DNA of 64,000 nt, taken from Sphingomonas sp. SCN 67-18 (GTDB lineage: Bacteria > Pseudomonadota > Alphaproteobacteria > Sphingomonadales > Sphingomonadaceae). Positions 42,802-63,452 of the stretch are shown here, piece by piece. The stretch lies in the NCBI RefSeq assembly GCF_001724715.1, contig NZ_MEFG01000004.1, positions 1 to 64,000 of the forward strand. The letters are read 5' to 3'. The notes beneath the pieces are model-generated. The model did not search any database. It was not told where the DNA came from and saw nothing but the letters and a program-made list of their open reading frames with translations. Position 1 is the stretch's first letter. Every line of letters begins with the position of its first letter. Made by a program: the position numbers and the translations under genes.

Positions 42802-42835
42802 AATATTCCTCTAAATTCTTCGCATAATATTGTGT
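42798..42835. promoter_or_regulatory. Lrp operator (inverted repeat)
   Basis: Perfect 10-bp arms ACACAATATT (42798-42807) and AATATTGTGT (42826-42835) are separated by 18 bases. The left arm includes the GTG start of the Lrp gene, so binding would repress its own expression and could influence the divergent alr-dadA-rid operon. Confidence 0.6.
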
Positions 42836-42934
42836 TTGATCGTCATATATCACCCATAATGTCAACCATTCGACGATAATTCGAATGCGCCGCCCATATA
42901 GTCACCGCAGCGCCAGAATCGGGATTTCGCCAGC

Positions 42935-44077: not shown

Positions 44078-45333
44078 AGGTCGCGGTTCTGGGCAGTGGC
44101 GTCATCGGCGTCACATCGGCCTATTATCTGATGAAGGCGGGGCATGAGGTGACGGTGATAGACCGTCAGCCCGGCCCGGCGCTGGAAACCAGCTTTGCCA
44201 ATGCGGGCGAGGTATCACCGGGCTACTCATCGCCCTGGGCCGCCCCCGGCATTCCGCAAAAGGCGATCAAATGGCTGATGATGCGTCATCCGCCGCTGAT
44301 CCTGAAACCGCGGATCGACCGCGAGATGCTGGCCTGGCTGTTCGCCATGCTGCGCAACTGCACCGGCGCGCGCTACGCGCTGAACAAGGGGCGGATGGTG
44401 CGGCTGGCCGAATATAGCCGCGACGTGCTGGACGCGCTGCGCACCGATACCGGCATCACCTATGACGAGCGCATGCAGGGCACGCTGCAGCTGTTCCGCA
44501 CCCAGAAGCAGCTCGACGACATCGCCAAGGATGTCGCGGTGCTGCGCCAGGGCGGCGTGCCGTTCGAGGTACTGGACGTTGCCGGCTGCGTCGCGGCGGA
44601 ACCGGGGTTGGCGGCGACGCGGCACAAGATCGTCGGCGGCCTGCGCCTGCCCCATGACGAAACCGGCGATTGCTTCAAGTTCACCAATGCGCTGGCGGAT
44701 CTGGCGGCGGCGGGCGGCGTCGCCTTCCGGCACAACAGGTCGATCGAGGGGCTGGACGTGGCGGACGGGCGCATCGCCGGCGTCCGCACGGACCAGGGGC
44801 GCATCACCGCCGACCGCTATGTGCTGGCGCTCGGCAGCCATTCGGCGCGCATGGTGCGGCCGATCGGCATCCGCCTACCGGTCTATCCGATCAAGGGCTA
44901 TTCCATCACCGTGCCCATCGTCGATCCCGCCATCGCCCCGGTTTCGACGCTGATGGACGAAAGCTACAAGATCGCCATCACCCGGCTGGGCGACCGGATC
45001 CGCGTCGGCGGCATGGCGGAAATATCGGGCTACAACGCCAGCCTGCCGGAACGGCGGCGCGAGACGCTGGCCTTTTCGGTGGGCGATCTGTTTCCGGGCG
45101 CGGGCGACATCCCGGCCGCCAGCTTCTGGTCCGGCCTGCGGCCGATGACCCCGGACGGCACGCCGGTGATCGGCCCGACCGGTTATGACAATCTCTTCCT
45201 CAACACCGGGCACGGCACGCTGGGCTGGACCATGGCCTGCGGCTCCGGCCGCGTCATCGCGGACATCGTCAGCGGCCGCGCGCCCGATATAGACGCTTCC
45301 GATCTGTCGATCGCACGCTATGGGAAGCGTTGA
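44074..45333 (+). CDS. dadA: D-amino-acid dehydrogenase DadA
   Basis: The 419-residue FAD enzyme oxidises D-alanine and other D-amino acids to 2-oxo acids, passing electrons to the respiratory chain. The FAD motif [22 protein letters not shown], the [22 protein letters not shown] signature and the C-terminal [16 protein letters not shown] are characteristic. The start overlaps the racemase stop. A RidA gene follows, which would hydrolyse the imine product. Confidence 0.95.
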
Positions 45334-45369
45334 CCGATCTTCTCTCCGTTTCTGCCGAAAGGACTGTTC

Positions 45370-45717
45370 ATGACCCTCCGTCGCATCGAATCCGGCCCCC
45401 GCATGAGCCAGGCCGTGGTCCACAACAACACCGTCTATCTGGCCGGCCAGGTCGGCGCGCCCGGCGCCAGCGTGACGGACCAGACCAGGGCGGTGCTGGC
45501 GAGCATCGAGAAGCTGCTGGCCGAAACCGGCAGCGACAAATCGCGCATCATCAGCGCCACAATCTGGCTGGCCGACATGGCCGATTTCGCGGAAATGAAC
45601 GCGGTGTGGGACGCATGGGTGGGCGGCAAGGACGCCCCGGCCCGCGCCACCGGCGAGGCGAGGCTGGCGACGCCGGCCTATAAGGTGGAAATCATCGTCG
45701 TCGCCGCCTGCGACTGA
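45370..45717 (+). CDS. RidA-family imine deaminase
   Basis: The 115-residue Rid protein shows AVVHNNTVYLAGQVGAPGASVTDQTRAVL, ATIWLADMADFAEMNAVWDAWV, and ARATGEARLATPAYKVEIIVVAA with the conserved Arg region. It lies 36 bases after dadA and should hydrolyse 2-iminopropionate or related imines from DadA, protecting PLP enzymes. It resembles the group that is commonly adjacent to dadA. Confidence 0.92.
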   Translation: MTLRRIESGPRMSQAVVHNNTVYLAGQVGAPGASVTDQTRAVLASIEKLLAETGSDKSRIISATIWLADMADFAEMNAVWDAWVGGKDAPARATGEARLATPAYKVEIIVVAACD

Positions 45718-46225: not shown

Positions 46226-49200
46226 TCAGAAGCTCAGCCGGACGCCGGCCCTGTAGCTTCGCCCGAGCGTATCGTAGATCATGCCGCGAAAAGGCGCGAC
46301 GAACAGCGGGGTCTGGCCCGATGCCGAGCTCATCGGTGTGTCCGGCGGCGCAATATTGGCCAGATTATCGACAGCCGCGAATAGCTGGATATTGGCGGTG
46401 ATACCGTAAGAGGCGCGGATATCCAGATAGGCGACGGACGGAACCCGATTGTCATCGACATCCTTCGCCGTCCATTCATTGTTGAGCCTGGCCTTGCCGA
46501 TGAAGCGCACCTGCCCGGTCAACGACAACGGCCCTTGCTTGTAGGACAGCGAAACGGTTCCACGAAGCTTGGGAATGCCGGCGACCGGGGAGTCCTCGCC
46601 CACACTGCCGGCATAATCGACCTTGCGGCCGAGAATGACCTGTTCCTGAGTAAAGATATAGTTAGCGAGCAGCCGCGCGGATAGCTTCCCCGCGAACAAG
46701 GGCGCCACATAGTCGAACTGGACGTCCAGGCCCGAAGTCATGTCCGCATTGACGTTGAGCGGGAACAGCCTGATCTGTGAGATTTGCCCATCTTCTCCAT
46801 ATTCTATCCGCGAACAATAGGCGGTTTCCCCGGCCATGCAGCGGGCCAGCACCTGCGGTGCCCCAACCGAGTAGATGGCATCGGTGATCCTGATCGAATA
46901 ATAGTCGATCGACGCGCTCAGCCTTGGAATAGCGGTCGGCGTGAGCACCAGACCCAGTGAATAGGTCTTGGCCTTTTCCGGCTGCAGATAGGGATTGCCG
47001 CTTGCAAGCGTTATAATGGAAACACCCTCGCCGGATATCGGATCAGGCACGACGAAGCGGGTCGCCACCCCGGAATTGAACAGTTCGGCGAGGTTGGGTG
47101 CGCGGATGTCGCGGGAAATGGTGCCGCGTAGCCGCACGCTCTCGTTGAGCTGGCTCGTCAGGCCGATCTTCCAAGTATAGACCGTGCCGCTGGTCGAATA
47201 ATCGGTCGCGCGCACCGCGCCGTTGACCGACAGGGACCGAAGGATCCGATCCTTCAGGATCGGAACGTCGATTTCCAGAAAGCCTTCTCTGACATCATAT
47301 TCGCCGGAGAAGGGGCTGAAGTTCGCCACGGAATAACGCCGCGCCGCCGCCCCCGCATCAGCCACAATCCTTCCCTTTTCACGGCGATATTCTGCGCCCA
47401 GAGCCATCGCAACATCGCCGGCGGGAAAACCGAACGGCAGCGCCCCCTGGGCGGAGAGCGAAACGACGTCCTCCACAAGCTTCATGTCCTGGAAATTGTT
47501 CCGGGTGTTGACATAGTCGATCGCCACCTGGGAAGCGTTGCCGACGCCGAAGATATCGAGCGGCTGGCACCCGGCGGCCGCTGCGTCGAAGCCGGGGCCG
47601 GGGATCGTCGCCCTGCAGACGATATCGCCGGTGACGGGATCCCGGACAGCATCGACCGCAAAGGCATAATTGGCCGTTATGATGTTCGAAAGCGTGCGTT
47701 GATCGACGTTCAGCACGCCGTGCTGATAATAGGCGCTCCAGGTCCAGCGACCGATGGTTCCGTCGAGGCTGAAGACCGCGCGCTTCAGCTCACGATCGGT
47801 CGTCGCCACAGGGATGCCGAGGGCCTTTTCGAAAAGATTGAGGGAAGGTTTGCCGAGATCAAGATTATTGACGTTCGTCGTGCCCATGAGGAACGTCGTC
47901 ACGCCCTCATCGGCCATCCTGTCCTTTATGGATTGCGGCAGAAAGGCATTATCGTCCTGCACCACGATGCTGCCCAGCCGCAACGCCGGCACGCTATTGT
48001 TGCGCGAACTTGTCCGGCCATAGTTGAGCTGGATCGCTGCACGCACGGCGTCCGTCAGCTCGTAACTCACATAACCGAAGAGCGAGCTTGTCCGGTAGGG
48101 AACGCTCAGCAGGCTGGTGGAAGGCCACAGCACCTCCGCGTCCCCACCATTGGAGAAGGTGTTCGATACGTTACCGAAATTGAACGGCACGGGAGCCGCA
48201 TCCGCACCCACGAACTGAATGCCGCGGAGCGGGCCACCCGTGATCAGCCCTCCCTGCGTCGCTTGCGACAGACCTACATCGGTCGCGCGGATCAAGCGCG
48301 GCTCATCATTGGTCGGGCTGTGATCGGGGTTGTTGACGAGCAGCGTCATCCGTCTGGAATAGGGGCGCTGGTTGGCGAACACGGCCTCCGGGCTCTCCAG
48401 GCGGTTGGCCGCGAATATAACGTGCCCGCGATTGCCGGCGAAAGACGTCCCGGCCGCAAAGGACAGGCGCTGGCTGCCGGTATCGAACTTGTAGCTGTCT
48501 CCCCATTCGATGCTGCCCCGCACGCCATCGAATTTCCGGTTCAGGACCAGATTGACCACCCCCGCCACCGCGTCTGACCCCCAAGCGGCCGACGCGCCGC
48601 CAGTTACGATATCGACACGGCTGACCAGCACCGTGGGCACCGTGCCCAGATCGACCCCACCGGTGATGTTGGATGCCAGCACCCTCTGACCGTCGAACAG
48701 CACCAGCGTGCGATTAATACCGAGCTGGCGCAGATTCACCGTGTCGATACCGGTAATGCCGCCCACGATATTGCCGGAATTGCCGCCATTTCGTGGCGAT
48801 GCCGAGCCACCCACCGATGGAAGCTCCCGGATGGAATCCCCGATGCTCGCCTTGGCGTCGCGCTCCAGCACTTCTTCTCCCACCACGGTGACGGGCGTCG
48901 GCTGTGCATAGCCCGAGGTCGTGATGCGCGATCCGGTAACCACGATATCGGCCTGGTTCGCCCCGGTCAGATCTATGGGGGGAGGCGGCAGACTCGGTGC
49001 GGCGGCGGGCGGAGGCTGTGGGGGCGGCGCGGGGCTGGCCACCGCCGGAGGATTGGCGAAGGCCGCCCGCCGCAGCGGGGAGGCACGCCGCGCACGGAGC
49101 ACGACGACCACGCCATTGTCCGCCGCGATCACGAGGCTCGTCGACTGGAGAAAGCGATTGAGCGCCACCCGCGCATCGATGGCGCCAACCAGCGCCGGTG

Positions 49201-49399
49201 TGCGAACGCCCTGCAGGCTGTCGGCCGCCACGATGATCTGCAAGCCGCTCTGCCGTGCGAATACCGGAATGGTCGCGTTCGCCTCTCCCGCACCGATGTT
49301 GAAATTTCTCTGCTGGGCAAACGTCGCGCTGCCGGATGCCGCAAGGAAGGCTGTGCCAACGCACAAGCCCATGCGTCGCGCTACACGACTGGCCAGCAT
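46226..49399 (-). CDS. TonB-dependent receptor with STN signalling domain
   Basis: The 1057-residue outer-membrane transporter has a signal peptide ending ATFAQQ and an STN domain at about residues 33-105 (NFNIGAGEANATIPVFARQSGLQIIV, VALNRFLQSTSLVIA). A proline-rich linker (APPPQPPPAAAPSLPPPP) precedes the plug (ADIVVTGSRITTSGYAQPTPVTVVGEEVL) and a barrel ending RAGVRLSF. The STN domain suggests it signals to a FecR protein, most plausibly the pair at 61.9-63.5 kb. From the plug onward it is highly similar to the receptor at 58829-61693. It is the last gene of the array, after a 209-base gap. Confidence 0.92.
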   Translation of the reverse strand: MLASRVARRMGLCVGTAFLAASGSATFAQQRNFNIGAGEANATIPVFARQSGLQIIVAADSLQGVRTPALVGAIDARVALNRFLQSTSLVIAADNGVVVVLRARRASPLRRAAFANPPAVASPAPPPQPPPAAAPSLPPPPIDLTGANQADIVVTGSRITTSGYAQPTPVTVVGEEVLERDAKASIGDSIRELPSVGGSASPRNGGNSGNIVGGITGIDTVNLRQLGINRTLVLFDGQRVLASNITGGVDLGTVPTVLVSRVDIVTGGASAAWGSDAVAGVVNLVLNRKFDGVRGSIEWGDSYKFDTGSQRLSFAAGTSFAGNRGHVIFAANRLESPEAVFANQRPYSRRMTLLVNNPDHSPTNDEPRLIRATDVGLSQATQGGLITGGPLRGIQFVGADAAPVPFNFGNVSNTFSNGGDAEVLWPSTSLLSVPYRTSSLFGYVSYELTDAVRAAIQLNYGRTSSRNNSVPALRLGSIVVQDDNAFLPQSIKDRMADEGVTTFLMGTTNVNNLDLGKPSLNLFEKALGIPVATTDRELKRAVFSLDGTIGRWTWSAYYQHGVLNVDQRTLSNIITANYAFAVDAVRDPVTGDIVCRATIPGPGFDAAAAGCQPLDIFGVGNASQVAIDYVNTRNNFQDMKLVEDVVSLSAQGALPFGFPAGDVAMALGAEYRREKGRIVADAGAAARRYSVANFSPFSGEYDVREGFLEIDVPILKDRILRSLSVNGAVRATDYSTSGTVYTWKIGLTSQLNESVRLRGTISRDIRAPNLAELFNSGVATRFVVPDPISGEGVSIITLASGNPYLQPEKAKTYSLGLVLTPTAIPRLSASIDYYSIRITDAIYSVGAPQVLARCMAGETAYCSRIEYGEDGQISQIRLFPLNVNADMTSGLDVQFDYVAPLFAGKLSARLLANYIFTQEQVILGRKVDYAGSVGEDSPVAGIPKLRGTVSLSYKQGPLSLTGQVRFIGKARLNNEWTAKDVDDNRVPSVAYLDIRASYGITANIQLFAAVDNLANIAPPDTPMSSASGQTPLFVAPFRGMIYDTLGRSYRAGVRLSF

Positions 49400-49607: not shown

Positions 49608-50816
49608 TCAACCCGGAACAAGCTTGAACAACCGCCCCTTGGGGTCGTCGGTCAGCAGATAGAGCGCACCCTCCGGCCCCTGCACCACAACGCGGATACG
49701 CTCGCCCTGTTCGAGCAGAAATCGCTCCTCGCCAACAACGCGATCGCCATTGAGGCTAAGCCGGACCAGGGCCGCGCTGCGCAGGCCGCCGATGAACAGG
49801 CTTCCCTTCCAGCTGGGGAAGAGGGCGCCGGTATAGAATGCCATGCCACTCGGGGCGATCACCGGGTCCCAATAATAGACCGGCTGCTCCATCCCCTGTT
49901 TCACAGTGATGTCGCCGGTGATGGCGTTGCCGTTATATTCGATGCCATAGGCGATCGTCGGCCAGCCATAATCACTGCTCTTGCGGGAAATGTTCAATTC
50001 ATCTCCGCCACGAACGCCATGCTCGACCTCCCACAATTCGCCGGTGGCCGGATTGATCGCCGCGCCCTGGACGTTGCGATGGCCGTAGGACCAAATTTCG
50101 GGCCGCACCCCCGCCGTGCCGACAAAGGGATTATCCCGGGGGACCGATCCGTCCGGATTTATCCGCACCACCTTGCCGAGCAGGCTGTTCATCTGCTGCG
50201 CTTGCATGCGCCCCGCCGGTATCGACCGATCGCCAAGGGTGACGAACAGCTTGCCGTCGCGCGCGAACACCAGCCGCCCACCGAAATGGAGCGTCGAATC
50301 GAGGGAGGGTGCCTGGTGAAAGATCGTCTGCACATCCTCCACGCGGGGTACTGCCCCGTCCACCAGCCGCCCCCGTGCCACGGCGGTGTTGTTGGTCCCG
50401 TCAGCCTGCGGCTCACTGTAGCTCCAGTAGATCAGGCCATTGCTTGCATGCCGCGGGTCCAGGGCAACATCCAGCAGCCCGCCCTGCCCCTTGACCATGA
50501 TCGGCGGCAGCCCGGCCACGGCGGGCGAAACCGCGCCGTCCGGCGTCACGATCCGCAACCGCCCCGCCCGCTCGGTGACCAGCATCCGCCCATCCGGAAG
50601 GAAGGCTAGCCCCCAAGGATTTTCAAGGCCCTCGGCAATGGTCACGCTCCTGAAGCCCACATTGCTGCGGGCTTCGGCAATACGGGTCTGTCCGTCGAAG
50701 GCAGGACGCTGGCCAGGGGCATTGGGAGCCACCTGGTTCCAGCTCTGCGCTTGCGCGGCACCCGCCATCATCAGCGCGGCACATGCCGTGCCGGCCCACC
50801 CTTTCAACCTGTCCAT
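49608..50816 (-). CDS. PQQ-dependent aldose sugar dehydrogenase (Asd/YliI-like)
   Basis: The 402-residue exported beta-propeller has a signal peptide ending GAAQAQ. It resembles soluble PQQ sugar dehydrogenases: [27 protein letters not shown], then [24 protein letters not shown] with the catalytic-type His, [31 protein letters not shown] and YGWPTIAYG. It should oxidise an aldose to its lactone in the periplasm. It lies 22 bases downstream of the SMP-30-like gene in the same transcript. Confidence 0.9.
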
Positions 50817-50837: not shown

Positions 50838-51764
50838 TTATCGCAAAGGCACAGCCACCACGGCAAATGCACCGGGGTCGACGGCCGGATCGCTCATCTT
50901 CGCGAACTTGGGCTGCACCGCATATGCGACGTCGCCGACAAGCACTGCGGCGGCCACCCCGTCCGTCATCCCGTCCCGCACGACCCGCACGGTCGCCTGG
51001 TCTCCCCGAATGGTGACGATGCTCACCTTGCCGACGCCTTCCGCCACCAGCAGCGTATCCGGCCCAATGGTCCGCATCGCATCCGGTCGTTCGAGCGGTT
51101 GCGACAGCGCCAGCCGCTGAGGCGTGCCGGCGCTACCGTCCGGGTTTATGCCCACACGGTACAGACCACCTTCGCGAAAGGTGTTCACATAGAGCGCGCC
51201 GTCGGCCAGGAACGCCAGGCCGTCCACCGCAGCCAGCCGGGCGTCGTCCAGCCAGGGCGCGAAGGCGGCGTCCCCCGCCTTCCATCGGTAGATGCGCGCA
51301 TCCTCGAAATCGGAGACATAGACCGTCCCATCGGAGGCAATCGTCAGGTCGTTGCACCCGCCCCGCGCCTCCATCGAAAAATTGTCTCGCGGCGCCCCGG
51401 TTTCAGGGTCGAACGTGCGGATGGACGCCACGCCCTTGGCGCCGTCGGCCGATCGTACACCCGCATCGCAGACCCACAGCAGGTGCCGGCCCGCGTCGTA
51501 ATAAAGCCCCATCACGCGCTTCATGCCGTGCGCGCCCGGCACGATCCAGCGTTTCGCCGTACGCTCACCAGGCAGCGCCCGATAGACGCCCGCCCTGCCG
51601 ACGCTGCCGATCCACAGCGTCCCATCCGGCCCGGCGGCGATATTTTCGGGGAAAACGCGGCCGTCCTCAATCGGGATGTCGCCGCCTGCCCGTGACGCCG
51701 CGCCTGCCGGCGTGGACAACACCGCAATACCCAACAGCCAGGTCGCCAATCCATGCCTCATCAT
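50838..51764 (-). CDS. Exported SMP-30/gluconolactonase-like propeller
   Basis: The 308-residue protein has a signal peptide ending PAGAAS and a six-bladed propeller pattern of the SMP-30/gluconolactonase group (IAAGPDGTLWIGSVG, GGCNDLTIASDGTVYVSDFEDARIYRW, AVDGLAFLADGALYVNTF). If metal-binding, it could open a sugar lactone made by the neighbouring PQQ dehydrogenases. It is between ybdD and the aldose dehydrogenase on the same strand. Propellers of this type also act as non-enzymatic binding proteins. Confidence 0.8.
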   Translation of the reverse strand: MMRHGLATWLLGIAVLSTPAGAASRAGGDIPIEDGRVFPENIAAGPDGTLWIGSVGRAGVYRALPGERTAKRWIVPGAHGMKRVMGLYYDAGRHLLWVCDAGVRSADGAKGVASIRTFDPETGAPRDNFSMEARGGCNDLTIASDGTVYVSDFEDARIYRWKAGDAAFAPWLDDARLAAVDGLAFLADGALYVNTFREGGLYRVGINPDGSAGTPQRLALSQPLERPDAMRTIGPDTLLVAEGVGKVSIVTIRGDQATVRVVRDGMTDGVAAAVLVGDVAYAVQPKFAKMSDPAVDPGAFAVVAVPLR

Positions 51765-51793: not shown

Positions 51794-51991
51794 TCAACAA
51801 CAACGGAAGCCGCCCTTGCCCTTGCCCCCGAACCGCGCAGCCTGCCGATCACGAAAGAATTCGGGATAGCTCATCACCGCCGCACCGGGATGCGCTCGCC
51901 TCATATGGTCCAGATAATTGTCGTAGGACGGCATCCCGACCAGCATCTGGCCTGCATGGGCAAGCTGCGCCCTCAGCCCGCGCCTGATCAT
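51794..51991 (-). CDS. ybdD: YbdD/YjiX-family small protein
   Basis: The 65-residue protein matches the YbdD/YjiX family, with [20 protein letters not shown] in the middle and an [13 protein letters not shown]-terminus. In other bacteria it is encoded directly downstream of cstA or btsT and is needed for pyruvate uptake. Here it overlaps the cstA stop by 4 bases, preserving that arrangement inside the oxidation operon. Confidence 0.93.
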
Positions 51992-54066
51992 GCCGCCGCC
52001 CCCGCTTCCCGGTGCGCATCATAGCCTTCGGGACTTTCGCTGGTCGTGATGCGGTCAGAAAGATAGGCCGCGCGACAGGCCTTTATACCGAAAAACACCA
52101 TGGCCACCACGACCGCCATGAAAAGCACGCACAGCGCCGCGTCGATCCGATCGTTGAAGATGATCCGCGACATCTCCGCCATCGACTTGGCCGGAGCCAG
52201 TACCTCGCCAGCCGCTGCCTTGCGTGAAAAGAGTTCGGCATGCGCGAGAAATCCGACGCGCGGATCGGCCGATGCGATCTTCTGCCAGCCGGCGGTAAGG
52301 GTGCAAAGCACCAGCCAGCTCGCGGGCAGGATCGTCGTCCACGCGAAGCGGTGCTTCTTCATGCGGAACAACACGACCGTGCCCAGGATCAAGGCGACTG
52401 CGGCCAGCATCTGGTTGGAAATGCCGAACAGCGGCCACAATGTGTTCACCCCGCCCAGCGGATCGGTGACGCCCTGGTAGAGGAAGAACCCCCAGGCGGA
52501 AACGCACAGGGCCGTGGCGACAAGGCCCGGCACCATGGCCGACGCATCCCGAAAGGCCGGAACCGCGAGGCCGAGCAGGTCCTGTAGCATGAAGCGGCCG
52601 GCCCGCGTGCCGGCGTCCACCGCGGTAAGTATGAACAACGCCTCGAACAGGATGGCGAAATGATACCAGAAGGCCTTCATCGCGGCCCCGCCCACCATAT
52701 GGCTGAATATCTCCGCCATCGCGACGGCCAGCGTCGGCGCGCCGCCGGTGCGCGATATGATGGTGTGCTCGCCCACCTCCTCGGCCGTGCGCGTGATCGT
52801 CTGGCTGTCGATCGGAAAGCCGAGATCGGTAACGGCTGCGGCGGCACTTTCGGGCGTCGTGCCGATGACGGCGGCCGGGCTGTTCATGGTGAAATAAATA
52901 CCCGGATCGATGATCGAGGCACCGATCAACGCAATGATCGCGACGAAGCTCTCCATCAGCATCGCCCCGTAGCCGATGAACCGGGCGTCAGCCTCATTAT
53001 CGATCAGCTTGGGGGTCGTGCCGGACGAGATGAGCGCATGAAAGCCCGATACCGCGCCGCACGCGATGGTGATGAACAGGAAAGGAAACAGAGACCCGGA
53101 CCAGACCGGGCCGCTACCGTCGATGAAATGCGACACGGCAGGCATCTGCAACGTCGGCTGCATGATGAGGATGCCGATCGCGAGCGCGACCACCGCGCCG
53201 ATCTTGAGGAAGGTCGACAGATAATCCCGCGGTGCGAGCAGCAACCACACCGGAAGGACGGAGGCGATGCCGCCATAGGCGATGAGAATCCAGCACAGCT
53301 GGACCGGTGTCAATGTGAAGACCGGACCCCAGACGGGCGATGCCGCGACATTCTGTCCATATATGATGGCCAGCACCAGGCCGACCAGACCGATTGCGGA
53401 CATTTCGCCGATCCGACCGGGGCGGATGAAACGGCCGTAAATCCCCATGAAAACTGCCAGTGGCATGGTGGCGGCGACGGTGAACAGGCCCCAGGGGCTT
53501 TCGGCAAGGGCGCGCACGACGATGAGCGCCAGCACGGCCAGGATGATGACCATGATCATGAACGCGCCGAACAACGCGATCACGCCGGCCGCCGCGCCCA
53601 GTTCCATCCGGATCAGTTCGCCCAGCGAGCGCCCGTCGCGCCGCATCGAGATGAACAGGATGATGAAATCCTGCACCGCGCCGGCCAGGACGACGCCGAA
53701 CAGAATCCACAGCATGCCCGGCAGGTAACCCATCTGCGCGGCAAGCACCGGGCCGACCAGCGGCCCAGCGCCCGCGATGGCGGCGAAGTGATGGCCGAAC
53801 AGCACGTAGCGATTGGTGGGGACGTAATCGAGCCCGTCATTGCGCCGGTGCGCGGGCGTCATGCGATTGCGGTCTATCCCGAAGACCCGCCCGGCCAAAT
53901 AGCGACTATAATAGCGAAAGGCGATCAGGTGGACCGACACCGCGGCGGCGACGATCCACAACGCATTGACCGCCTCTCCATTCGCCGTCGCCACTATGGA
54001 GAGCGCCAGCGCCCCCAATACACCCAATATCGCCCACGGCCCATGCTGCTTCAGAATCGCGCCCAT
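51988..54066 (-). CDS. cstA: CstA-family transporter (pyruvate/peptide)
   Basis: The 692-residue inner-membrane protein has many membrane segments and the CstA signatures [59 protein letters not shown] and [17 protein letters not shown]. coli members CstA and BtsT import pyruvate (CstA also peptides) by proton symport together with YbdD/YjiX. Its location inside a run of periplasmic oxidoreductases and an exported aldolase suggests it imports a carboxylate made in the periplasm. The gene lies 53 bases after the cytochrome c-NHL gene. Confidence 0.95.
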
Positions 54067-54118
54067 ATCGTCCCCATCCCATCATCTGGCGGTGATGCCA
54101 TCGCCGATGTCATGTCCG

Positions 54119-55594
54119 CTATTTCACATGGCGCGCAACGAGCTTTTCCTTCACCTGCGCCCCGTAGATGACGCCGTTCCTGTCCACCCATATGCCTTCC
54201 GCGCCGCTGGTCGCGCCAAGATCGGGATTGGGCTCCGGGTCGGGGATGAAAGCTGTGACCCTACCGTCCCGCACGCTGCCGATGCGGATGCCCCGCTTCC
54301 AGCCGGGATGATATCCATATCCCGCAGGGGTACGGGATTCGGAGTCCGTGGAATAAAGCACGTCATTATGGTCCACGAATAGCCCGCTCGGTCTACCGAA
54401 TTGGGTCCAGCTTCCTAATAAAATGCCTTCCTGATCATATATCTGAACCCTATCATTGGCACGATCCCCGACATAGATTCTTCCACTACTGTCGATCGAT
54501 AGCGTATGTGGAACATTCAACTGCCCCTGTCCGGACCCAACCTCACCCCATTGTTTGATAAATTTGCCCCGTTCATCGAATTTCATCACACGCGACGTCT
54601 TATCCGGGGTGTGCCCGTCCGCCACGAAGATGCTGCCGTCAGGCACAACCAGAACGGCATTTGGTTCGACGAAACCGTCTGTCCCGGCCGTCGCCACGCC
54701 GCGCTTGCCAAGCACGAGCAGCACCTTGCCGGACGGACTGAACTTCGTGACTGTGCCGCCCTTACCGCCTTCTACCCGGGCATCGGTGAGCCAGACATTG
54801 TCCTGGGCATCGATGAAGAAGCCATGAGGGAAGTTGAACATGCCGCCGCCGAAGGCGCGGATGAAACGCCCGCCGGAATCGAACATCATGATCGGATCGA
54901 TCTTGCTGTCCGAGCAACTGTTCGCCCCGCAACGCTCAGCGACCCAGATATTGCCCTTGCTGTCGGTCGCAACGGCACTGGTCGAGCCCATCGTCCGGCC
55001 GGACGGTAGCTTGAAGAAGGTCGTTTCGGTCCGATAGGGATTTGGATAGCTGTTCGGGTCACCGACCGCGATATTTTCGGACGATGGAGTGGACGGTTGC
55101 GCCGTTCCACCGCCGACACCCGCCGGGCGCTGGCTGGATATGCCGATCATGTTCAGCATTTCCGCGCGGGAGTTCAACGGCCGGCTTCCCGCCGGGTAAC
55201 CGTTGAACTTGAGCATGAAGGCAACGATGTCGGCATAGACCGCGCGGCTGAGCCCGTTAGGCCGATCGAACGGCATCGTTGTGCGAACCCGCTCGAACAT
55301 GTCGCCCACGGTCAGCCCGTTCCAGGTCGACTGGAACTGCGCCCCGGTGATCGACGGTGCCTCGCCCGTGCCGTCCAGTGTGGCGCCATGGCACACGCTG
55401 CAATCTTGGCTATACGCCACGGCGCCGCGCGCGGCCTGCTCCTCAGTGAAAACGCCGTCCCATACGGACTGCTGACTGCCCTGGGCGGACAACGCCCCTC
55501 CTCCGAAAAGGAAGGCAGCGCTGCATGCCAAACCCGCCAGACCAAGCGCAACACGGCCGATAGTATTGCTCACCCACTTCCTCCTTGTCATCAT
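54119..55594 (-). CDS. Cytochrome c-NHL propeller fusion protein
   Basis: The 491-residue exported protein has a signal segment (VALGLAGLACSAAFLFGGGA) and a class I cytochrome c domain at about residues 45-135, with CSVCHG as the haem site and the likely axial Met in RTTMPFDRP. An NHL-repeat six-bladed propeller follows (AVATDSKGNIWVAERCG, PHGFFIDAQDNVWLTDARV, PHTLSIDSSGRIYVGDRANDRVQIY). It starts 2 bases from the quinoprotein dehydrogenase stop, so it probably takes electrons from that enzyme; the propeller may bind substrate or have lyase/lactonase activity. The fusion is not a standard dehydrogenase subunit. Confidence 0.88.
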   Translation of the reverse strand: MMTRRKWVSNTIGRVALGLAGLACSAAFLFGGGALSAQGSQQSVWDGVFTEEQAARGAVAYSQDCSVCHGATLDGTGEAPSITGAQFQSTWNGLTVGDMFERVRTTMPFDRPNGLSRAVYADIVAFMLKFNGYPAGSRPLNSRAEMLNMIGISSQRPAGVGGGTAQPSTPSSENIAVGDPNSYPNPYRTETTFFKLPSGRTMGSTSAVATDSKGNIWVAERCGANSCSDSKIDPIMMFDSGGRFIRAFGGGMFNFPHGFFIDAQDNVWLTDARVEGGKGGTVTKFSPSGKVLLVLGKRGVATAGTDGFVEPNAVLVVPDGSIFVADGHTPDKTSRVMKFDERGKFIKQWGEVGSGQGQLNVPHTLSIDSSGRIYVGDRANDRVQIYDQEGILLGSWTQFGRPSGLFVDHNDVLYSTDSESRTPAGYGYHPGWKRGIRIGSVRDGRVTAFIPDPEPNPDLGATSGAEGIWVDRNGVIYGAQVKEKLVARHVK

Positions 55595-55595
55595 G

Positions 55596-57644
55596 TTATT
55601 TATGAGACGGTAAAGTGTAGGCTATATATTCTCCTGAATAAGTTCCCCCAGAGACGGCAACTATGATGAATTGCTTTCCATTCACCATATAGGTCATGGG
55701 AGATCCGCTTTGCGGAGCGGGCATCCATACCGACCCGACTTCCTGACCGTTATTTTTGTCATATGCTCGCAACATCGCGCCGCGCGGACGACTGTCCGAC
55801 GTCGTCACGACACCGTCTCCGGCAACCACCAGGCTTTTCGTGACCAATGTGCCGATCTGGAAGCCCGGCTGTCCGGTGCGCGCTATGTTCACGCCCTTCA
55901 GCAGCGGGTGATTGCGAACGATATCGGGCGTTTCCCCGTGGGGAATCTGCCACTTGATCGAACCCTTGTTCACATCGACCGCCGAGATCACCGAATAAGG
56001 CGGTTTCAGGAGCGGCAAGCCATCGATATCGAGTCGGCGACTGTTACCGTCGCCGGACGCCGCGGGCGGAGGTGGCGGCGGCGGAGCGGAGTCCGCACCC
56101 ACATCTTCACCGGCGGATTTGATAATCCGCACGGGCTGGCCGGAAACGCCGACCACATAATTGATATCGGTCATATCCTTCGGCCCAGGTAGCAAGCCGG
56201 TGGAATTCAGACAGGCCGTGCAGGCATAGACATAGACGACGCCGGTTTCCGGATCGAACGAGCCGCCAGGCCAGTTCGTGCCGCCGCCCGGCCACATGTT
56301 GAGTACGCCCAGTCGATCCGGGGTGCTGACGACAGGGGGTGTGTAAATCGGCCCGAACTTGTGATTCTTGGTCAAATCCAGCGCACGCTTACGGAGCTCC
56401 GGCGTAAAATCGATGAGATCTTCTTTCAGCACACCATTACGCGCATAAGCGGGCGGCTTGCTGGGGATCGGCTGGGTCGGCGAATACCATTCGCCGGGCA
56501 CGTCGCCCTTTTCGACCTTGCGCTCCGGGATCGGCCAGATCGGCTTTCCGGTCGCCCGGTCGAAGACATAGAGGTAATTCTGCTTGCTCGGCAGCGCGAC
56601 CACCTTGCGCGGCCTTCCGTCCACCGTGACGTTCATCAGCAAGGGGGCTGAGGAGTTATCGAAATCCCAGATTTCGTGGTGGATCAGCTGGAAATGCCAT
56701 TTGCGTTCACCAGTCAGCAGGTCGACCGCGACAAGACTGTTGCCGAACAAGTTGTTGCCGGGGCGATGGCCGCCATAGAAGTCGCTGGTGGGCGATTCTA
56801 CCGCCAGATAGGCGAGATTCAGTTCTGTATCGACCGATATCTGGGTCCACACCCCAGTATTGCCATTCGTCTCGGCCGACCCGTTATGCCAGCTGTCATA
56901 ACCGAACTGCCCCTTCTTGGGCACGGTATGAAAGATCCACATCCGCTTGCCGGTGCGGACATCGAATCCACGCACATAACCCTTGGTGTTGTTGTGAGTG
57001 CGCGGGGTAAAGCCCTCGCGCATCGCCGCGCCGACGATGATCGTGTTCCCGGCCACGGTGGGCGCGGCATGCAGGCCGACCTCGCCCGTTTCCAGCCCGC
57101 CCTGTAGATCCTGGTCGAAATCCACCTTGAGGTCGATCACGCCGTCCTTGCCGAAGCTCTTGATCCGCTGGCCCGTCGCTGCGTCGAGCGCGACAAGACG
57201 ATAGCCCGGCGTCACGTAGAGAATGCGCTTCTCCGTCCCGTCCGTCCAATAGGAGAGACCACGACCGGACAAGGCGCGTGGGGATGCGGCGCCACGCTTA
57301 CCTTCACGAATACTGTGAACCCACAGCAATTCGCCGGTCACTCCGTCGAGAGCGACGACACCTCGCCTCGTCCCCGCCGTTGCGTAGATGATGCCGTCCA
57401 CCGCCAGAGGCGTGCCTTCCAGCTTATATTCCGGCCGCGTCCCGATCTGATCGGTCTTGAACCGCCAGGCGACCTCCAGATCGTTGAAGTTGGAGGCGTT
57501 GATCTGATCGACGGGCCGGTAGCGGCTGCCGGCAAGATCCGCATTATAGGTCGGCCAATCGACATTCTGCGCTACGGATGGCGAAGCAAGCGCGAGCGCC
57601 AACATAGCGGAACCGAGGGAAAACCCTGTCTTTACACGAAGCAT
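55596..57644 (-). CDS. PQQ-dependent quinoprotein dehydrogenase
   Basis: The 682-residue periplasmic beta-propeller enzyme resembles the catalytic part of membrane glucose dehydrogenase and quinate-type dehydrogenases. A signal peptide ends PSVAQN; WPTYNADLAGSRYRPVDQIN opens the propeller, HHEIWDFDNSSAP marks the active-site region, and a PPPPPPP insert separates late blades. The N-terminal membrane anchor of glucose dehydrogenase is absent, so it should be soluble. Start ATG 57644 has AGGAG about 10 bases upstream. It oxidises a sugar, polyol or alcohol and would donate electrons to the adjacent cytochrome c. Confidence 0.92.
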   Translation of the reverse strand: MLRVKTGFSLGSAMLALALASPSVAQNVDWPTYNADLAGSRYRPVDQINASNFNDLEVAWRFKTDQIGTRPEYKLEGTPLAVDGIIYATAGTRRGVVALDGVTGELLWVHSIREGKRGAASPRALSGRGLSYWTDGTEKRILYVTPGYRLVALDAATGQRIKSFGKDGVIDLKVDFDQDLQGGLETGEVGLHAAPTVAGNTIIVGAAMREGFTPRTHNNTKGYVRGFDVRTGKRMWIFHTVPKKGQFGYDSWHNGSAETNGNTGVWTQISVDTELNLAYLAVESPTSDFYGGHRPGNNLFGNSLVAVDLLTGERKWHFQLIHHEIWDFDNSSAPLLMNVTVDGRPRKVVALPSKQNYLYVFDRATGKPIWPIPERKVEKGDVPGEWYSPTQPIPSKPPAYARNGVLKEDLIDFTPELRKRALDLTKNHKFGPIYTPPVVSTPDRLGVLNMWPGGGTNWPGGSFDPETGVVYVYACTACLNSTGLLPGPKDMTDINYVVGVSGQPVRIIKSAGEDVGADSAPPPPPPPAASGDGNSRRLDIDGLPLLKPPYSVISAVDVNKGSIKWQIPHGETPDIVRNHPLLKGVNIARTGQPGFQIGTLVTKSLVVAGDGVVTTSDSRPRGAMLRAYDKNNGQEVGSVWMPAPQSGSPMTYMVNGKQFIIVAVSGGTYSGEYIAYTLPSHK

Positions 57645-57679
57645 CGCGCATCTTCTCCTGGATAGAATTATTCTTGCTG

Positions 57680-57738
57680 TGGCCAAACGGTGCGCACCCC
57701 ATTGACGTTAGGAGGGGGTGGAGTGCGCACCGTGGCCA
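57680..57738 (-). other. Large intercistronic hairpin (aldolase/quinoprotein junction)
   Basis: Between the aldolase stop and the quinoprotein start, a 10-bp perfect stem (CGGTGCGCAC at 57688-57697, GTGCGCACCG at 57723-57732) extends through a 2-base bulge into 6 more pairs (TGGCCA / TGGCCA). The inner C-rich and G-rich runs can pair further. No T-run follows. It may stabilise the upstream mRNA or mark a processing site. Confidence 0.65.
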
Positions 57739-57743
57739 GGGGA

Positions 57744-58739
57744 TCACCCCATGGCTCTCACGCGATCGAGAGCCGATTTGAGCGATGCCCGTTGAGCGTC
57801 GGTAAGGCCGATGTTGGGAACGCGCGGCGTCCATTCGCTGGTGCCCATTTCCTGCGACAGAATGAACTTCATCACCGCGAAGTTATCCGCGCCGGCCGCC
57901 GCCGTTCCGATAATGCCCTGGGCGGCCTGCAACTTCGCCAGCGCTCCGCGCCAGTCGCCCTTGGCACGGTAGGCGCGGAAGATGTCGGCGCATTTGCGGC
58001 TGAAAGGATTGCCGTCCGCAAGGATGGCGCCCATCCCGTTTTCCAGGGCAATGGCAAGGTTGCTGTTGTTACCCGACCGCATGTTCAGATCGGGAAAGGT
58101 TTTCACGAAACCCGTATATCCGGACGCGATGCCGCTCGAATCCTTGATTCCGGCAAGATGCGGATAGCGATACAGGTTACGCAGCAACTGGATCGTGATC
58201 GGAACCTCGCTCAAACCGGGAATATGATAGAGGTTGATCGGAATCTGGACCGCCTCGAACAGCATCGAGAAATAGCGGGTAAGCCCCTCCACGCTTGGAT
58301 TGTCGAAATAGAAGGGCGGTATGACCAGCATTCCGTCCGCGCCGTTGGCTTCCGCGTGCTTGGCCAAATCAATCGTCTCGATGATGTTGGACGTGCCCGG
58401 ATTCATCATGATATTCATGCCGTTGCGATGCTTCATCGCAGTTTCGAGGATGAATTTCCGTTCGGTCAGCGAGAAAGACGGGAACTCGCCAGACGTCCCC
58501 AATACCATCACGCCATCCGCACCACAGTCCTTGTGCCATTGCATGATGGCGGCATATGCGCCGGGGTCGAATGTCCCGTCGCGATTGCAAGGCGTGACGG
58601 ATGCCACCCAGTACATGGTCTTTTCACGGCTACCCAGGCGGCGGGCCGCCTGCGCCACGGCCGGGGCACTTGCCGTCAACACCGTCGCAGCCGCAACACC
58701 CCCCATCATCCCGATCATATCCCTGCGCGTCGTCTTCAT
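57744..58739 (-). CDS. Tat-exported DapA-family aldolase
   Basis: The 331-residue protein combines a twin-arginine signal (MKTTRRDMIGMMGGVAAATVL, RR at 5-6, cleavage near VAQA) with a DHDPS/N-acetylneuraminate lyase barrel. The pyruvate-binding GTSGE is at about 81-85, the catalytic Tyr at about 171 (INLYHIPG) and the Schiff-base Lys at about 199 (AGIKDSSG). Family members cleave or form C-C bonds next to pyruvate; they are normally cytosolic, so periplasmic export is unusual. The ATG at 58739 has AGGTGA 5 bases upstream; a GTG three codons earlier is possible. It precedes the quinoprotein gene. Confidence 0.88.
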   Translation of the reverse strand: MKTTRRDMIGMMGGVAAATVLTASAPAVAQAARRLGSREKTMYWVASVTPCNRDGTFDPGAYAAIMQWHKDCGADGVMVLGTSGEFPSFSLTERKFILETAMKHRNGMNIMMNPGTSNIIETIDLAKHAEANGADGMLVIPPFYFDNPSVEGLTRYFSMLFEAVQIPINLYHIPGLSEVPITIQLLRNLYRYPHLAGIKDSSGIASGYTGFVKTFPDLNMRSGNNSNLAIALENGMGAILADGNPFSRKCADIFRAYRAKGDWRGALAKLQAAQGIIGTAAAGADNFAVMKFILSQEMGTSEWTPRVPNIGLTDAQRASLKSALDRVRAMG

Positions 58740-58760
58740 CGGGGTCACCTCTCCCAGTTC

Positions 58761-58800
58761 TTCCCTGTCGCGATGCCCAAGTAACCATCGCGACAGGGAA
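58761..58800 (-). other. Perfect 15-bp intercistronic hairpin
   Basis: TTCCCTGTCGCGATG (58761-58775) and its exact complement (58786-58800) flank a 10-base loop in the 89 bases between the receptor stop and the aldolase start. It is the longest perfect hairpin found in the window. No T-run follows on the minus strand, so it may cap the receptor mRNA or set relative expression rather than end transcription. Confidence 0.75.
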
Positions 58801-58828
58801 CATTTGCGGTTCAGTATTTTTAATATTA

Positions 58829-61693
58829 TTAGAAGTTAAATCTTACACCTGCACGGTAACTTCTTCCAATTGTATCATAAATAGTTCCACTAATCGGGGC
58901 AACGAACAGCGGCGTTTGACCTGCAGCGGAACTCATGGGAAGAGCTGGCGGAGCAACATTCGTCACATTGTCGATTGCAGCGAATATATTGATATTATCG
59001 CTAATCTCGTATGATGAACGAATATCAACATAGGTTACGCTAGGAACCCGGTTGTTATCGACATCCTTCGCCGTCCACTCATTCTTCAACTTCGCCTTTC
59101 CGACGAAGCGCAACTGTCCGGTCAACGACAGAGGCCCTTGATCGTAAGTTAAAGATGCGGTTCCACGCAGCTTCGGAATGCCGCTTACTTCTGCATCCCC
59201 GCCAATGCTTCCGGCATAGTTCACGGTCCTGCCCAGGATCACCTGTTCCTGGGTAAGTATGTAGTTACCCAAAAGCCTCGCCGAAATCTTTCCTGACCCA
59301 AGAGATGTCGAATAATCGATCTGGGCGTCGATACCAGAAGTCTTGTCAGAGTTAACGTTGAGCGGAAACAGCCTGATCTGCTGTATCTTCCCGTCGCCGT
59401 CATATTCAATCTGAGAGCAATATGCGGTCTCTCCGGCAATACACCTCGACAATACCTGAGGCGCGCCCACGGAATAGATCGCATCATCGATCTTGATCGA
59501 ATAATAATCGAGCGATGCGCTAAGCCGCGGAATGAAGCTGGGCGTGAGGACCACGCCGAGCGAATAGGTTTTCGCCTTTTCAGGCTTCAGGGCCGCGTTA
59601 CCGCCTGCCAGCGTTATGATGGAAACGCCTTCTCCGGTAACCGGGTCGGGAACGACAAAGCGCGTCGCCACGCCGGAATTGAACAACTCGGCAAGGTTAG
59701 GTGCGCGAATGTCACGCGAAACGGTACCGCGCACCCGGATGCTGCTGTTGAGCTGGCTCGTTAAGCCCACCTTCCATGTATAGACGGTTCCGCTGGTCGA
59801 ATAATCCGTCACACGGCCCGCACCGTTGAGCGAGAAGGATTCGACAAGATTATCCTTCAAGATCGGAATATCGACTTCGAGAAATCCCTCCTTGACGCTG
59901 TACTTTCCGGAGAACGGACTGAAGTTGGCCACCGAATAGGCACGCGCGGCCGCACCGGGATCGGCAACGATATTACCCTTCTCACTACGATATTCGCCAC
60001 CCAGCGCGACGGCAATATTGCCGGCCGCAAAGCCCACGGGCAACGTGCCTTGGGCCGAAACAGCGACGACGTCCTCGACCAGCGCAATACGCTGGAAATT
60101 GTTTCGGGTGTTCACATAGTTGATCGCGGCCTGCGAAGCATTGCCCACGCCAAAGATGTTCAATGGCACGCAACCCGCCGCAGCGGCATTGAAGCTAGAC
60201 CCTGGAACGGTCGCCCGGCACACGATTTCACCCGTCACCGGATGGCGGATCGCATCAACCGCGAACGCGTAATTCGCGGTTATGACGTTAGACCGTGTCC
60301 GCTGATCGACATCAAGTTCGCCCCGCTGATAGTAGGCGTTCCACGTCCAGTCGCCGAGGGAGCCGTCGAGGCTTAGCACCGCGCGTTTCAATTCCCGCTT
60401 GGTGGTCGCGACGGGGATGCCGAGAGCCTTTTCAAAGGCGTCGAGGGACGGCCTGGACAGATCGAGATTGTTGACGTTCGTCGTACCGACCGGAATGGTC
60501 GTCACGCCCTCTTCCGCCATCAGATCCTTGATGGATTGGGGCAGGTAGGCATTGTCGTTACGGATGTTGATGCTGCCCAGGCGCAGCGCCGGAACGCTGG
60601 CGTTGCGCGACCAGGTACGGCCATAGTTGAGCTGGACGGAAGCACGGATGGCGTCGCTGAGTTCGTAACTGGCATATCCGAACAACGACGTCGTCTTATA
60701 TTCGACCGTCAGCAGGCCGGTGGCCGGCCACAGTGATTCCGCGTCGCCGCCATTCGAAAAGGTGTTGGAGACATTGCCGAAATCGAAGAGCGTCGGCGTC
60801 GCGTTGGGACCGACGAACTGAATGCCGCGCAGAGGACCGCCGGTGATCAGTCCGCCCTGGGTCGCCTGGGAAAGGCCCACATTGGTGGCGCGGATCAGGC
60901 GCGGTTCGCTATTGGTCGGCGTATAGTTGGGATTGTTGACGAGAAGCGTCAGCCTCTTCGAATAGGATCGCTGCGACGCGAACACTGTGTCCGGGCTGGT
61001 GAGGTGGTTGGCCGCGACGATGACGCGTCCGCGATCGTCGGCGAAGGACGTGCCGGCCGCGAAAGACAGGCGCAGGCTCTTATTGTCGAACTTGTAGGAT
61101 TCGCCACCCTCAATGCTGGCCCGGATGCCGTCGAACTGGCGATTGAGCACCAGGTTGACCACGCCGGCGACGGCGTCGGAACCCCATGCGGCGGATGCGC
61201 CGCCGGTCACCACGTCGACCCGACTGACGAGTGCCGTCGGGATCGTGCCCAGATCGACACCGCCCGTGATGTTCGACGCGAGAACCCGCTGGCCGTCGAA
61301 CAGGACCAGCGTACGGTTGATCCCGAGCTGGCGCAGGTTGACCGTATCGATGCCGGTGATGCCGCCGACGATATTGCCCGCATTACCGCCGTTACGGGGG
61401 GAGGCCGACACGCCCACCGCGGGAAGTTCGCGAATGGAATCGCCGATGCTGACCTTCGCGTCGCGCTGCAGAACCTCTTCACCGACAACGGTGACGGGCG
61501 TCGGCTGGGTATAGCCGGACGTGGTAATGCGAGAGCCGGTCACGACAATATCGGGCTGGCTCGCCGAATCCGCCGCCTCGTCGGCAACACCCGGCGCTTC
61601 CTGTGCAAATGCAGTACCTTCGAAGAGAACCAACGATGTTGTAAGCAAAAGCTGGACGATTCGGCGAGATTTATGAGAGATTTTCATTAACAT
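58829..61693 (-). CDS. TonB-dependent receptor without STN domain
   Basis: The 954-residue outer-membrane transporter is the first gene of the array. After a signal peptide (ending GTAFAQ) and a short acidic stretch comes the plug (PDIVVTGSRITTSGYTQPTPVTVVGEEVL, IGDSIRELPAVGVSASPRNGGN, VSRVDVVTGGASAAWGSDAVAG) and a long barrel ending RAGVRFNF. It is closely related along its whole length to the receptor at 46226-49399 but lacks the STN domain. The last few hundred bases are clearly richer in A+T than the rest of the gene. Start is 61693 or a methionine two codons later. Confidence 0.93.
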   Translation of the reverse strand: MLMKISHKSRRIVQLLLTTSLVLFEGTAFAQEAPGVADEAADSASQPDIVVTGSRITTSGYTQPTPVTVVGEEVLQRDAKVSIGDSIRELPAVGVSASPRNGGNAGNIVGGITGIDTVNLRQLGINRTLVLFDGQRVLASNITGGVDLGTIPTALVSRVDVVTGGASAAWGSDAVAGVVNLVLNRQFDGIRASIEGGESYKFDNKSLRLSFAAGTSFADDRGRVIVAANHLTSPDTVFASQRSYSKRLTLLVNNPNYTPTNSEPRLIRATNVGLSQATQGGLITGGPLRGIQFVGPNATPTLFDFGNVSNTFSNGGDAESLWPATGLLTVEYKTTSLFGYASYELSDAIRASVQLNYGRTWSRNASVPALRLGSINIRNDNAYLPQSIKDLMAEEGVTTIPVGTTNVNNLDLSRPSLDAFEKALGIPVATTKRELKRAVLSLDGSLGDWTWNAYYQRGELDVDQRTRSNVITANYAFAVDAIRHPVTGEIVCRATVPGSSFNAAAAGCVPLNIFGVGNASQAAINYVNTRNNFQRIALVEDVVAVSAQGTLPVGFAAGNIAVALGGEYRSEKGNIVADPGAAARAYSVANFSPFSGKYSVKEGFLEVDIPILKDNLVESFSLNGAGRVTDYSTSGTVYTWKVGLTSQLNSSIRVRGTVSRDIRAPNLAELFNSGVATRFVVPDPVTGEGVSIITLAGGNAALKPEKAKTYSLGVVLTPSFIPRLSASLDYYSIKIDDAIYSVGAPQVLSRCIAGETAYCSQIEYDGDGKIQQIRLFPLNVNSDKTSGIDAQIDYSTSLGSGKISARLLGNYILTQEQVILGRTVNYAGSIGGDAEVSGIPKLRGTASLTYDQGPLSLTGQLRFVGKAKLKNEWTAKDVDNNRVPSVTYVDIRSSYEISDNINIFAAIDNVTNVAPPALPMSSAAGQTPLFVAPISGTIYDTIGRSYRAGVRFNF

Positions 61694-61891
61694 CCCCTCG
61701 TTTTTTCTGACAATATTATGCCCTTCATCCTGAACAGTTGCTCAGAATGAGAATCTTTTCCCTGAGACACAAAATTTATTGCGTCATATGCTGAGATGAA
61801 GCTGTGGCTGTTTTCCCCCACTCATCGATTCATTTTTTTCGAGATGCCAAATTGTCTTGAACTCGGAGGGGGGAGAGGCTTTGCTAGAGAG

Positions 61892-62473
61892 ATGAGGGGG
61901 GTGTCCGACAGTCGTGCGATCTGGCTCGCGCAGCATGTGCTGCCGCACGAAGCGGATTTGCGCAGATGGTTGAGGCGTCGGATTCCCGCCGGTCTCGACA
62001 TCGACGACGTCGTTCAGGAAACATATGCCAAGCTGACCATGCTGGCGGAGGTCGACCACATCGCGGCCCCGAAGGCCTATGTCTATCAGACCGCCCTGTC
62101 CGTCATCCTGCAGGAAAGCCGGCGCGCAAGGACCCGGCGCATCGACAATGACATTGAAATCGAGTTGCTGAAAACGGAAGCGCCTGAACCGTTGCAGGAT
62201 CAGCAGATCGAGGCGCGCCAGGAACTGGCGCAGGTATATGAGACGATCGCCGCATTGCCGGAGAAATGCCGCGAGGTATTTATCCTGCGAAAGATCGACG
62301 GCCTGTCCCAGCGAGAGATCGCGGAGAAACTACATTTGTCGGAAAGCACTGTGGAAAAGCATATCGGGCGGGGAATTCGCAGGCTGATCGAAAATTTCGG
62401 GCGTGGCGGAAGAAGCGGCACTTCCGCATCTAGCAGCAAGGAAACAGGTGGTCGGTCAGATGACGAAGGTTGA
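61892..62473 (+). CDS. FecI-type ECF sigma factor
   Basis: The 193-residue sigma factor has region 2 as ADLRRWLRRRIPAGLDIDDVVQETYAKL and region 4 as LPEKCREVFILRKIDGLSQREIAEKLHLSESTVEKHIGRGIRRL. The ATG at 61892 gives the usual N-terminus; GTG 61901 is possible, and a longer frame upstream adds non-family sequence. It is divergent from the TonB receptor/aldolase/PQQ array, with about 200 bases between, and overlaps fecR by 14 bases. It most likely transcribes that array when the STN receptor is occupied. Confidence 0.92.
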   Translation: MRGVSDSRAIWLAQHVLPHEADLRRWLRRRIPAGLDIDDVVQETYAKLTMLAEVDHIAAPKAYVYQTALSVILQESRRARTRRIDNDIEIELLKTEAPEPLQDQQIEARQELAQVYETIAALPEKCREVFILRKIDGLSQREIAEKLHLSESTVEKHIGRGIRRLIENFGRGGRSGTSASSSKETGGRSDDEG

Positions 62474-63452
62474 GACCAGTAAGGAGATCGATGCGCTGGC
62501 GGCCCTGTGGGCTGCCCGGCTCGATCGGGGCGAACTGACCGAACTGGACCAGCATTTGCTCGATTCCTGGCTGGAAGGAGACACCCGACGCCTGGGATCT
62601 CTGGCGCGCGCGCGCGCGCTGCTCATCCCCGTGTCATCAACCGCGAGCGCCGGCCGCCCGCCCGCCAACGATGCGGACGGAGCGCGACAAGAAGAGTCCG
62701 TCGCATCGATCGTCCCAAGTCTCATGTCCCGCCGGCGGATGCTGCAGGCCGGCACCATCACCGCGCTGGCCGCCGGCTTCGGCGGATTGGCGCTGCTGCC
62801 GCACGGCACCAGCAGCTATACGACGGCGCAGGGCGAGGTTCGCCTGCTGCCGCTGTCCGACGGATCGGTCGTGACGCTGAACACGGACAGCCGGATCCGC
62901 GTCAGCTTCGACGATGCCACGCGCACCGTCTATCTCGACGAGGGCGAAGTGCTGTTCGACGTGGCGCAAAACCCTCGACGCCCTTTTCTCGTCAAGGCGG
63001 GCATGGCGAAGGTCCAGGCGCTCGGCACCGCCTTCAGCGTACGACGCACGGGCGAAACCCCGGTCGAGATCATGGTCCGCGAGGGGACGGTTGAGGTCGC
63101 CGCGCCGCAGGGTCGCAGGCAATCGATGAAGGTCGGCGCCAACATGAAGGCGGTGGCGGACGCCAGCGGAGACATCTTCACGCAAGCGATGTCCAACGAT
63201 GAGATGGAGAGGATGCTGGCGTGGCGCGAGGGCAAGATCGGGTTCAGCGAGACGAGCCTTCACGACGCGGCGATGGAGTTCAACCGCTATAACAAAATCA
63301 AGATCGAGGTCGGAAACCAGACGATAGCGGCCTACACCGTGACCGGCATGTTTTCCGCCACGGATCCGCGCGGTTTCGCTCATGCAGCCGCGCTCAGCCT
63401 GGACCTGAAAGTCCAGGAAAAACCGGGACAGATTACCTTCGCGTCTAAATGA
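62460..63452 (+). CDS. FecR-family anti-sigma factor
   Basis: The 330-residue membrane regulator has an N-terminal DUF4880-like region ([30 protein letters not shown]). A membrane segment [17 protein letters not shown] is preceded by SRRRMLQ, which looks like a twin-arginine motif. The FecR domain contains [36 protein letters not shown], and the C-terminal STN-like domain is [20 protein letters not shown]. It holds the adjacent FecI inactive until signalled by an STN-bearing receptor, probably the one at 46226-49399. Confidence 0.92.

Follow-up and report, generated by a model that had tools for sequence, protein, structure and literature searches.

A predicted Tat-exported pyruvate aldolase of the DHDPS/NAL family in a candidate periplasmic oxidative cassette of a Sphingomonas species

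The known enzymes of the DHDPS/NAL superfamily work in the cytosol or in organelles. In a 64,000-nucleotide stretch of the Sphingomonas sp. SCN 67-18 genome (the window), a minus-strand gene of this family (57744..58739) begins with the features of a Tat signal peptide. What would such an enzyme do outside the cytoplasm? The explanation that best accounts for the locus as a whole, and that we regard as fairly probable, is that it encodes an exported class I pyruvate lyase working in a small periplasmic oxidative cassette.

The N-terminal export signal

The open reading frame starts with ATG downstream of a Shine-Dalgarno-like sequence (GGGAGAGG) and encodes 331 amino acids followed by a stop codon. 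The sole Pfam match of its product is PF00701 (DHDPS; E=5e-39, 134.2 bits against a curated cut-off of 22.1), covering profile positions 7-287 of 289 and residues 48-328 of a 334-residue version that starts three codons upstream. Together with the GxxGE, Tyr and Lys residues described below, the profile makes the protein a full-length member of the superfamily. Its first 31 residues (MKTTRRDMIGMMGGVAAATVLTASAPAVAQA, MKTTRRDMIG...APAVAQA; codons 58647..58739, minus strand) show the n-, h- and c-regions of a Tat signal, with the twin arginines at positions 5-6, an uncharged h-region and an A-x-A at about residues 27-31. No such segment is present in solved DHDPS structures.

The signal is a property of a whole clade. 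We scored proteins by a simple rule, an RR soon after the start codon followed by at least 13 uncharged residues, which 31 of 32 clade members satisfied and only 1 of 24 other DHDPS-family proteins did; that lone positive reflects an implausible far-upstream start or reading frame. For a few clade members it was an upstream RR that satisfied the rule, and the real motif can be seen in their sequences. The one member that failed comes from a fragmented assembly and looks like a 5' frameshift. The motif takes forms such as TTRREMMG, TTRRGTMG, MTRRDTLA, LDRRTTLA, ITRRESLA, HTRRDTLG and TTRRMFVGM, and it is kept down to 37% identity within n- and h-regions that have otherwise diverged. A chance RR was ruled out by this conservation test. 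The genome also encodes TatC (PF00902, 3.6e-71) of the Tat translocase.

The predicted structure places the signal outside the enzyme. An AlphaFold2 model built on a four-sequence alignment has a mean pLDDT of 80 and a pTM of 0.79, and residues 1-33, which are disordered, form its only segment below 50. VIA-align superimposed residues 34-328 on YagE (2v8z; Z 34.4, rmsd 2.0, 287 aligned, 26% identity) and residues 32-330 on Neisseria meningitidis DHDPS (3flu; Z 33.5, rmsd 2.3, 288 aligned). Among the matches listed, the structural search returned DHDPS-family folds only, with 2v8z scoring best. Residues 30-35 of the model match about residue 1 in many solved structures of cytosolic enzymes; in the model, the N-terminus is an addition to a complete TIM barrel.

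A preliminary description of this DNA had proposed an export signal on a DapA-family protein, a proposal open to the objection that the N-terminus might lie inside the mature fold. The structure-based alignment leaves residues 1-33 of the model outside that fold, and with the conservation of the Tat motif across a deep clade and an encoded TatC, the predicted signal holds. It is very improbable that the RR stretch is something other than an export signal and that the enzyme stays in the cytosol: the tripartite Tat architecture is conserved and is absent from non-clade relatives, the extension is no part of the fold, and the neighbouring gene products are likewise predicted to be exported or envelope proteins. 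The motif, its conservation and the model make Tat export of the aldolase to the periplasm a well supported prediction.

The predicted active site and its chemistry

Catalytic residues were compared in 32 aligned members of the exported clade, which share about 37-74% identity with the query; a 33rd, L013, was used in the tree only. GTSGE at 81-85, Tyr171 in NLYHIPG and Lys199 in AGIKDSSG correspond to Thr44-Thr45, Tyr133 and Lys161 of Escherichia coli DHDPS, and Tyr144 corresponds to Tyr107. Lys199, Tyr171, Gly81, Gly84 and Glu85 are invariant in all 32 sequences, the two middle positions of GxxGE vary, and 31 of the sequences retain Tyr144. The equivalent residues of E. coli DHDPS and human HOGA bind the carboxylate, provide the Schiff base and act as a proton relay (PMC3188589). 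The intact pyruvate-aldolase site that had been proposed for this protein is thus borne out by the invariance of Lys and Tyr, and Schiff-base (class I) pyruvate chemistry is well supported by the sequence comparison.

The residues that recognise the second substrate in known enzymes are replaced. DHDPS Arg138 binds aspartate semialdehyde (PMC3188589); its position is Leu176 here and Thr, Val, Asn, Met, Trp or Leu across the clade, never Arg. Sugar recognition in NAL depends on the pair Asp191/Glu192 (PMC5380162), which aligns with Asn225/Ser226. Since the catalytic set is kept and both recognition elements are replaced, pyruvate chemistry appears to be retained and the second-substrate site appears to be new.

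The family profiles lead to the same placement. The protein scores 120 bits against a cut-off of 206 for the dapA equivalog TIGR00674, 76.1 against 382 and 89.5 against 281 for the NAL equivalogs TIGR00683 and NF003164, and 84.6 against 390, 74.6 against 374 and 89.9 against 397 for the NCBIfam archaeal KDG aldolase, KdgD and HpaI-type families. Because it reaches none of these cut-offs, the aldolase lies within the DHDPS/NAL superfamily but outside its named functional groups.

Comparison with the nearest groups shows what is shared. The aldolase resembles DapA (TIGR00674; 3flu, 6mqh) in fold over its full mature length (Z about 33, rmsd 2.3-2.5) and in the GxxGE, Tyr133/Tyr107 and Lys161 equivalents, and its best PDB sequence matches are DHDPS at 27-29% identity. 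These matches are what an ordinary lysine-biosynthesis DapA with an extended start would give, an idea that we rejected as scarcely credible: the Arg138 equivalent is replaced, the score falls below the family cut-off, and a separate dapA with Arg at that position lies on contig 23 of the same genome, so lysine synthesis is covered. The Tat signal and an operon of periplasmic oxidation genes rather than lysine synthesis genes also set it apart from DapA. With YagE and the 2-keto-3-deoxy-acid aldolases it shares class I pyruvate aldolase residues in addition to the fold, but it falls below the KDG aldolase cut-off, and to our knowledge no known YagE or KDG aldolase has an export signal. NanA has the same fold, Lys and Tyr, and NALs also have Leu at the Arg138 position; the difference lies in Asp191/Glu192, which the exported aldolase does not conserve, and in the low TIGR00683 score.

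What reaction does this site catalyse? Judged by sequence, aldol cleavage looks the same as dehydration or deamination, both of which occur in the superfamily. The Lys/Tyr/GxxGE set also serves dehydratases such as KdgD. The protein could therefore be an exported Schiff-base enzyme that dehydrates or deaminates a 2-keto-3-deoxy acid or a pyrroline-type compound without releasing pyruvate; this would fit the shared catalytic set of KdgD-type enzymes, the failure to reach any functional-subfamily equivalog cut-off and the variable Arg138 position in the clade. We consider it unlikely, as a gene for a CstA-family transporter beside the aldolase gene in four cassettes suggests a pyruvate product. 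Still less probable is an exported non-catalytic protein that uses the aldolase fold for binding or sensing. Assignment of function to the clade by sequence and first-shell variants in some homologues (GTNGE, and Asp replacing His172) leave some room for such a protein, but the Schiff-base Lys and the Tyr are invariant over a range of about 37-74% identity, which would be unexpected without selection for catalysis. We therefore continue with the exported lyase as the preferred reading.

A cassette of envelope and redox proteins

The aldolase is the second gene in a minus-strand series that gene order and spacing suggest is transcribed as a single operon. The series runs from a TonB-dependent outer-membrane receptor (58829..61693; PF00593/PF07715) through the aldolase to a PQQ-type quinoprotein dehydrogenase with a Sec-type signal seen by inspection (55596..57644), an exported cytochrome c fused to an NHL beta-propeller (54119..55594; PF13442 and PF01436), a CstA-family transporter and putative pyruvate:H+ symporter (51988..54066; PF02554, 3e-253), an exported SMP-30/strictosidine-synthase-like beta-propeller (50838..51764; PF20067 at a weak 6e-4), an exported glucose/sorbosone dehydrogenase (GSDH) family protein (49608..50816; PF07995, 3e-136) and a second TonB-dependent receptor, a paralogue of the first (46226..49399; PF00593). 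Divergent from the operon, on the plus strand, are genes for an ECF sigma factor (61796..62473; PF08281/PF04542) and a FecR-type anti-sigma/sensor protein (62403..63452; PF04773). The SMP-30-like, GSDH and sigma factor genes are conserved in locus L004, and the TonB receptor gene is upstream of the aldolase gene in most orthologous loci.

Several features of the surrounding DNA were noted. No sigma-70-like promoter or intrinsic terminator was found in the aldolase region. The gap between the TonB receptor and aldolase genes contains a perfect 15-bp inverted repeat (58761-58800; TTCCCTGTCGCGATG, 10-nt loop), which is probably not a conserved element, since the corresponding interval in six orthologous loci lacks a repeat of its size. 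Most of the window has a G+C content of 65-71%, but this drops to 57-61% from 54000 to 63000, and the operon genes also have a lower G+C at third codon positions; horizontal acquisition may be the cause. Lrp/AsnC regulator-, alanine racemase-, D-amino-acid dehydrogenase- and RidA-like genes at 42343-45714, named by inspection, correspond to an ordinary alanine-to-pyruvate route. In L005 (343-2360) and L026 (3926-6234), a conserved histidine kinase/response regulator-like pair is located upstream of the cassette and may regulate it.

The exported subfamily is monophyletic (33 proteins, support 1.0, long branch) and is found in the Sphingomonadaceae and one second family of the Alphaproteobacteria. 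Twelve homologous genes occur in 11 of 398 sampled Sphingomonadaceae genomes, from three of 96 genera. These include Sphingomonas quercus XMGL2, which has two copies and, like the Sphingobium sp. 66-54 and Sandarakinorhabdus metagenome-assembled genomes, is among the named loci with a homologue. In the second family, which came from a class-level draw, 11 of 96 genomes have homologues. A phylum-wide draw of 398 genomes gave none at 1e-45 beyond the own genome, and a plasmid collection gave none at 1e-30.

The aldolase, dehydrogenase and cytochrome/NHL genes form the core of the cassette. They are immediately adjacent in 13 of 14 sphingomonad loci, and beside the second S. quercus copy the core partners lie within 4 kb of the aldolase; cytochrome and NHL are separate genes in many of the orthologous loci. 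At an identity of 70% or above, orthologues of the dehydrogenase were found in exactly the 11 Sphingomonadaceae genomes with the aldolase, in two copies where there are two aldolases. The cassette is also present in several loci of the second family, where the closer homologues have the same partners and the more distant ones are found beside cupins with Sec or Tat signals, a Tat sugar-isomerase-like TIM barrel and a cytochrome-fused PQQ protein. Near the exported aldolases of six loci in other genomes (L074, L076, L077, L078, L080 and L020), RR or Sec-like signals also occur on many kinds of enzyme that are normally found in the cytosol: amine oxidase, amidohydrolases, dienelactone hydrolase, a sugar-isomerase-like TIM barrel and a class V aminotransferase.

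The dehydrogenase contains the PQQ propeller domain (PF01011, 3e-169, 565 bits) and keeps the catalytic-Asp motif, with WDF aligned to WDY of 1kb0. The own genome has no PqqC match and its PqqE matches are all below the cut-off; PqqC is missing in 12 of 14 carriers tested and present in the other two. The dehydrogenase would therefore run on imported PQQ, or work without using PQQ. Its relatives at 54-58% identity in other sphingomonads lie, at several loci, beside CoA-transferase, enoyl-CoA hydratase and aldehyde dehydrogenase-like genes, named by inspection and by blast to genes from earlier loci; these loci contained no Tat-aldolase and gave no clue to the substrate.

In E. coli, CstA transports pyruvate specifically and is driven by protons (PMC7730263). 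The transporter in the window is the sole CstA gene of its genome; it matches the Pfam CstA family and scores 1039.7 bits against a cut-off of 1188 for NCBIfam NF011590 (PRK15015). A CstA gene lies directly downstream of the cytochrome/NHL genes in four of 14 sphingomonad cassettes (the window, L004, L005 and L026), and shared inheritance of one block could account for several of the four. Three of the 11 indexed sphingomonad genomes with the aldolase have CstA, each as a single copy within the cassette, and eight have none; the background frequency above the cut-off is 27 of 200 Sphingomonadaceae genomes (13.5%). None of three second-family genomes tested has CstA. Pyruvate import by CstA is therefore not obligatory. 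By analogy with the E. coli protein, the cassette CstA is the best clue to periplasmic pyruvate release by the exported enzyme, and we take it as a hint only.

Proposed pathway and its meaning

The export signal and the operon partners together make it probable that the aldolase releases pyruvate outside the inner membrane. In the pathway that we propose, the TonB receptor would take up the substrate, or possibly a cofactor. The aldolase would fold in the cytoplasm, probably as an oligomer, be exported by Tat and cleave a 4-hydroxy- or related 2-oxo acid to pyruvate and an aldehyde. The quinoprotein dehydrogenase would oxidise the aldehyde, or an alcohol precursor of the 2-oxo acid, and pass the electrons to the periplasmic cytochrome c. 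Pyruvate would enter the cell together with protons through CstA where it is present, or through another carrier. Export in vivo, the type of reaction, the order of the steps, dependence on PQQ, pyruvate transport by the cassette CstA and the class of substrate are all inferred. The fully dedicated form of this scheme, in which C-C cleavage in the periplasm releases pyruvate for uptake by CstA and electrons from the other product enter the quinoprotein/cytochrome chain, is plausible to us but somewhat short of probable. With cleavage in the periplasm and uptake by CstA, no inner-membrane transporter for the whole compound would be needed.

The scheme resembles periplasmic PQQ oxidation systems such as the Pseudomonas ped cluster, which likewise combine a periplasmic quinoprotein-type dehydrogenase with cytochrome c. 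It differs from them in the predicted export of a C-C lyase alongside the dehydrogenase and in the absence of PQQ synthesis genes from most of the genomes. We know of no aldolase that is part of such a system. A search of the open-access literature for an exported DHDPS-family enzyme or a 'periplasmic aldolase' found nothing relevant, which is not proof of novelty.

Incomplete oxidation in the periplasm has so far consisted of redox steps. If the proposed function is correct, it would be extended to C-C cleavage, and a natural example of an aldolase folded and exported through Tat would be at hand. CstA would gain a concrete role in these bacteria, and its presence in some bacteria with no other CstA genes would have a testable reason.
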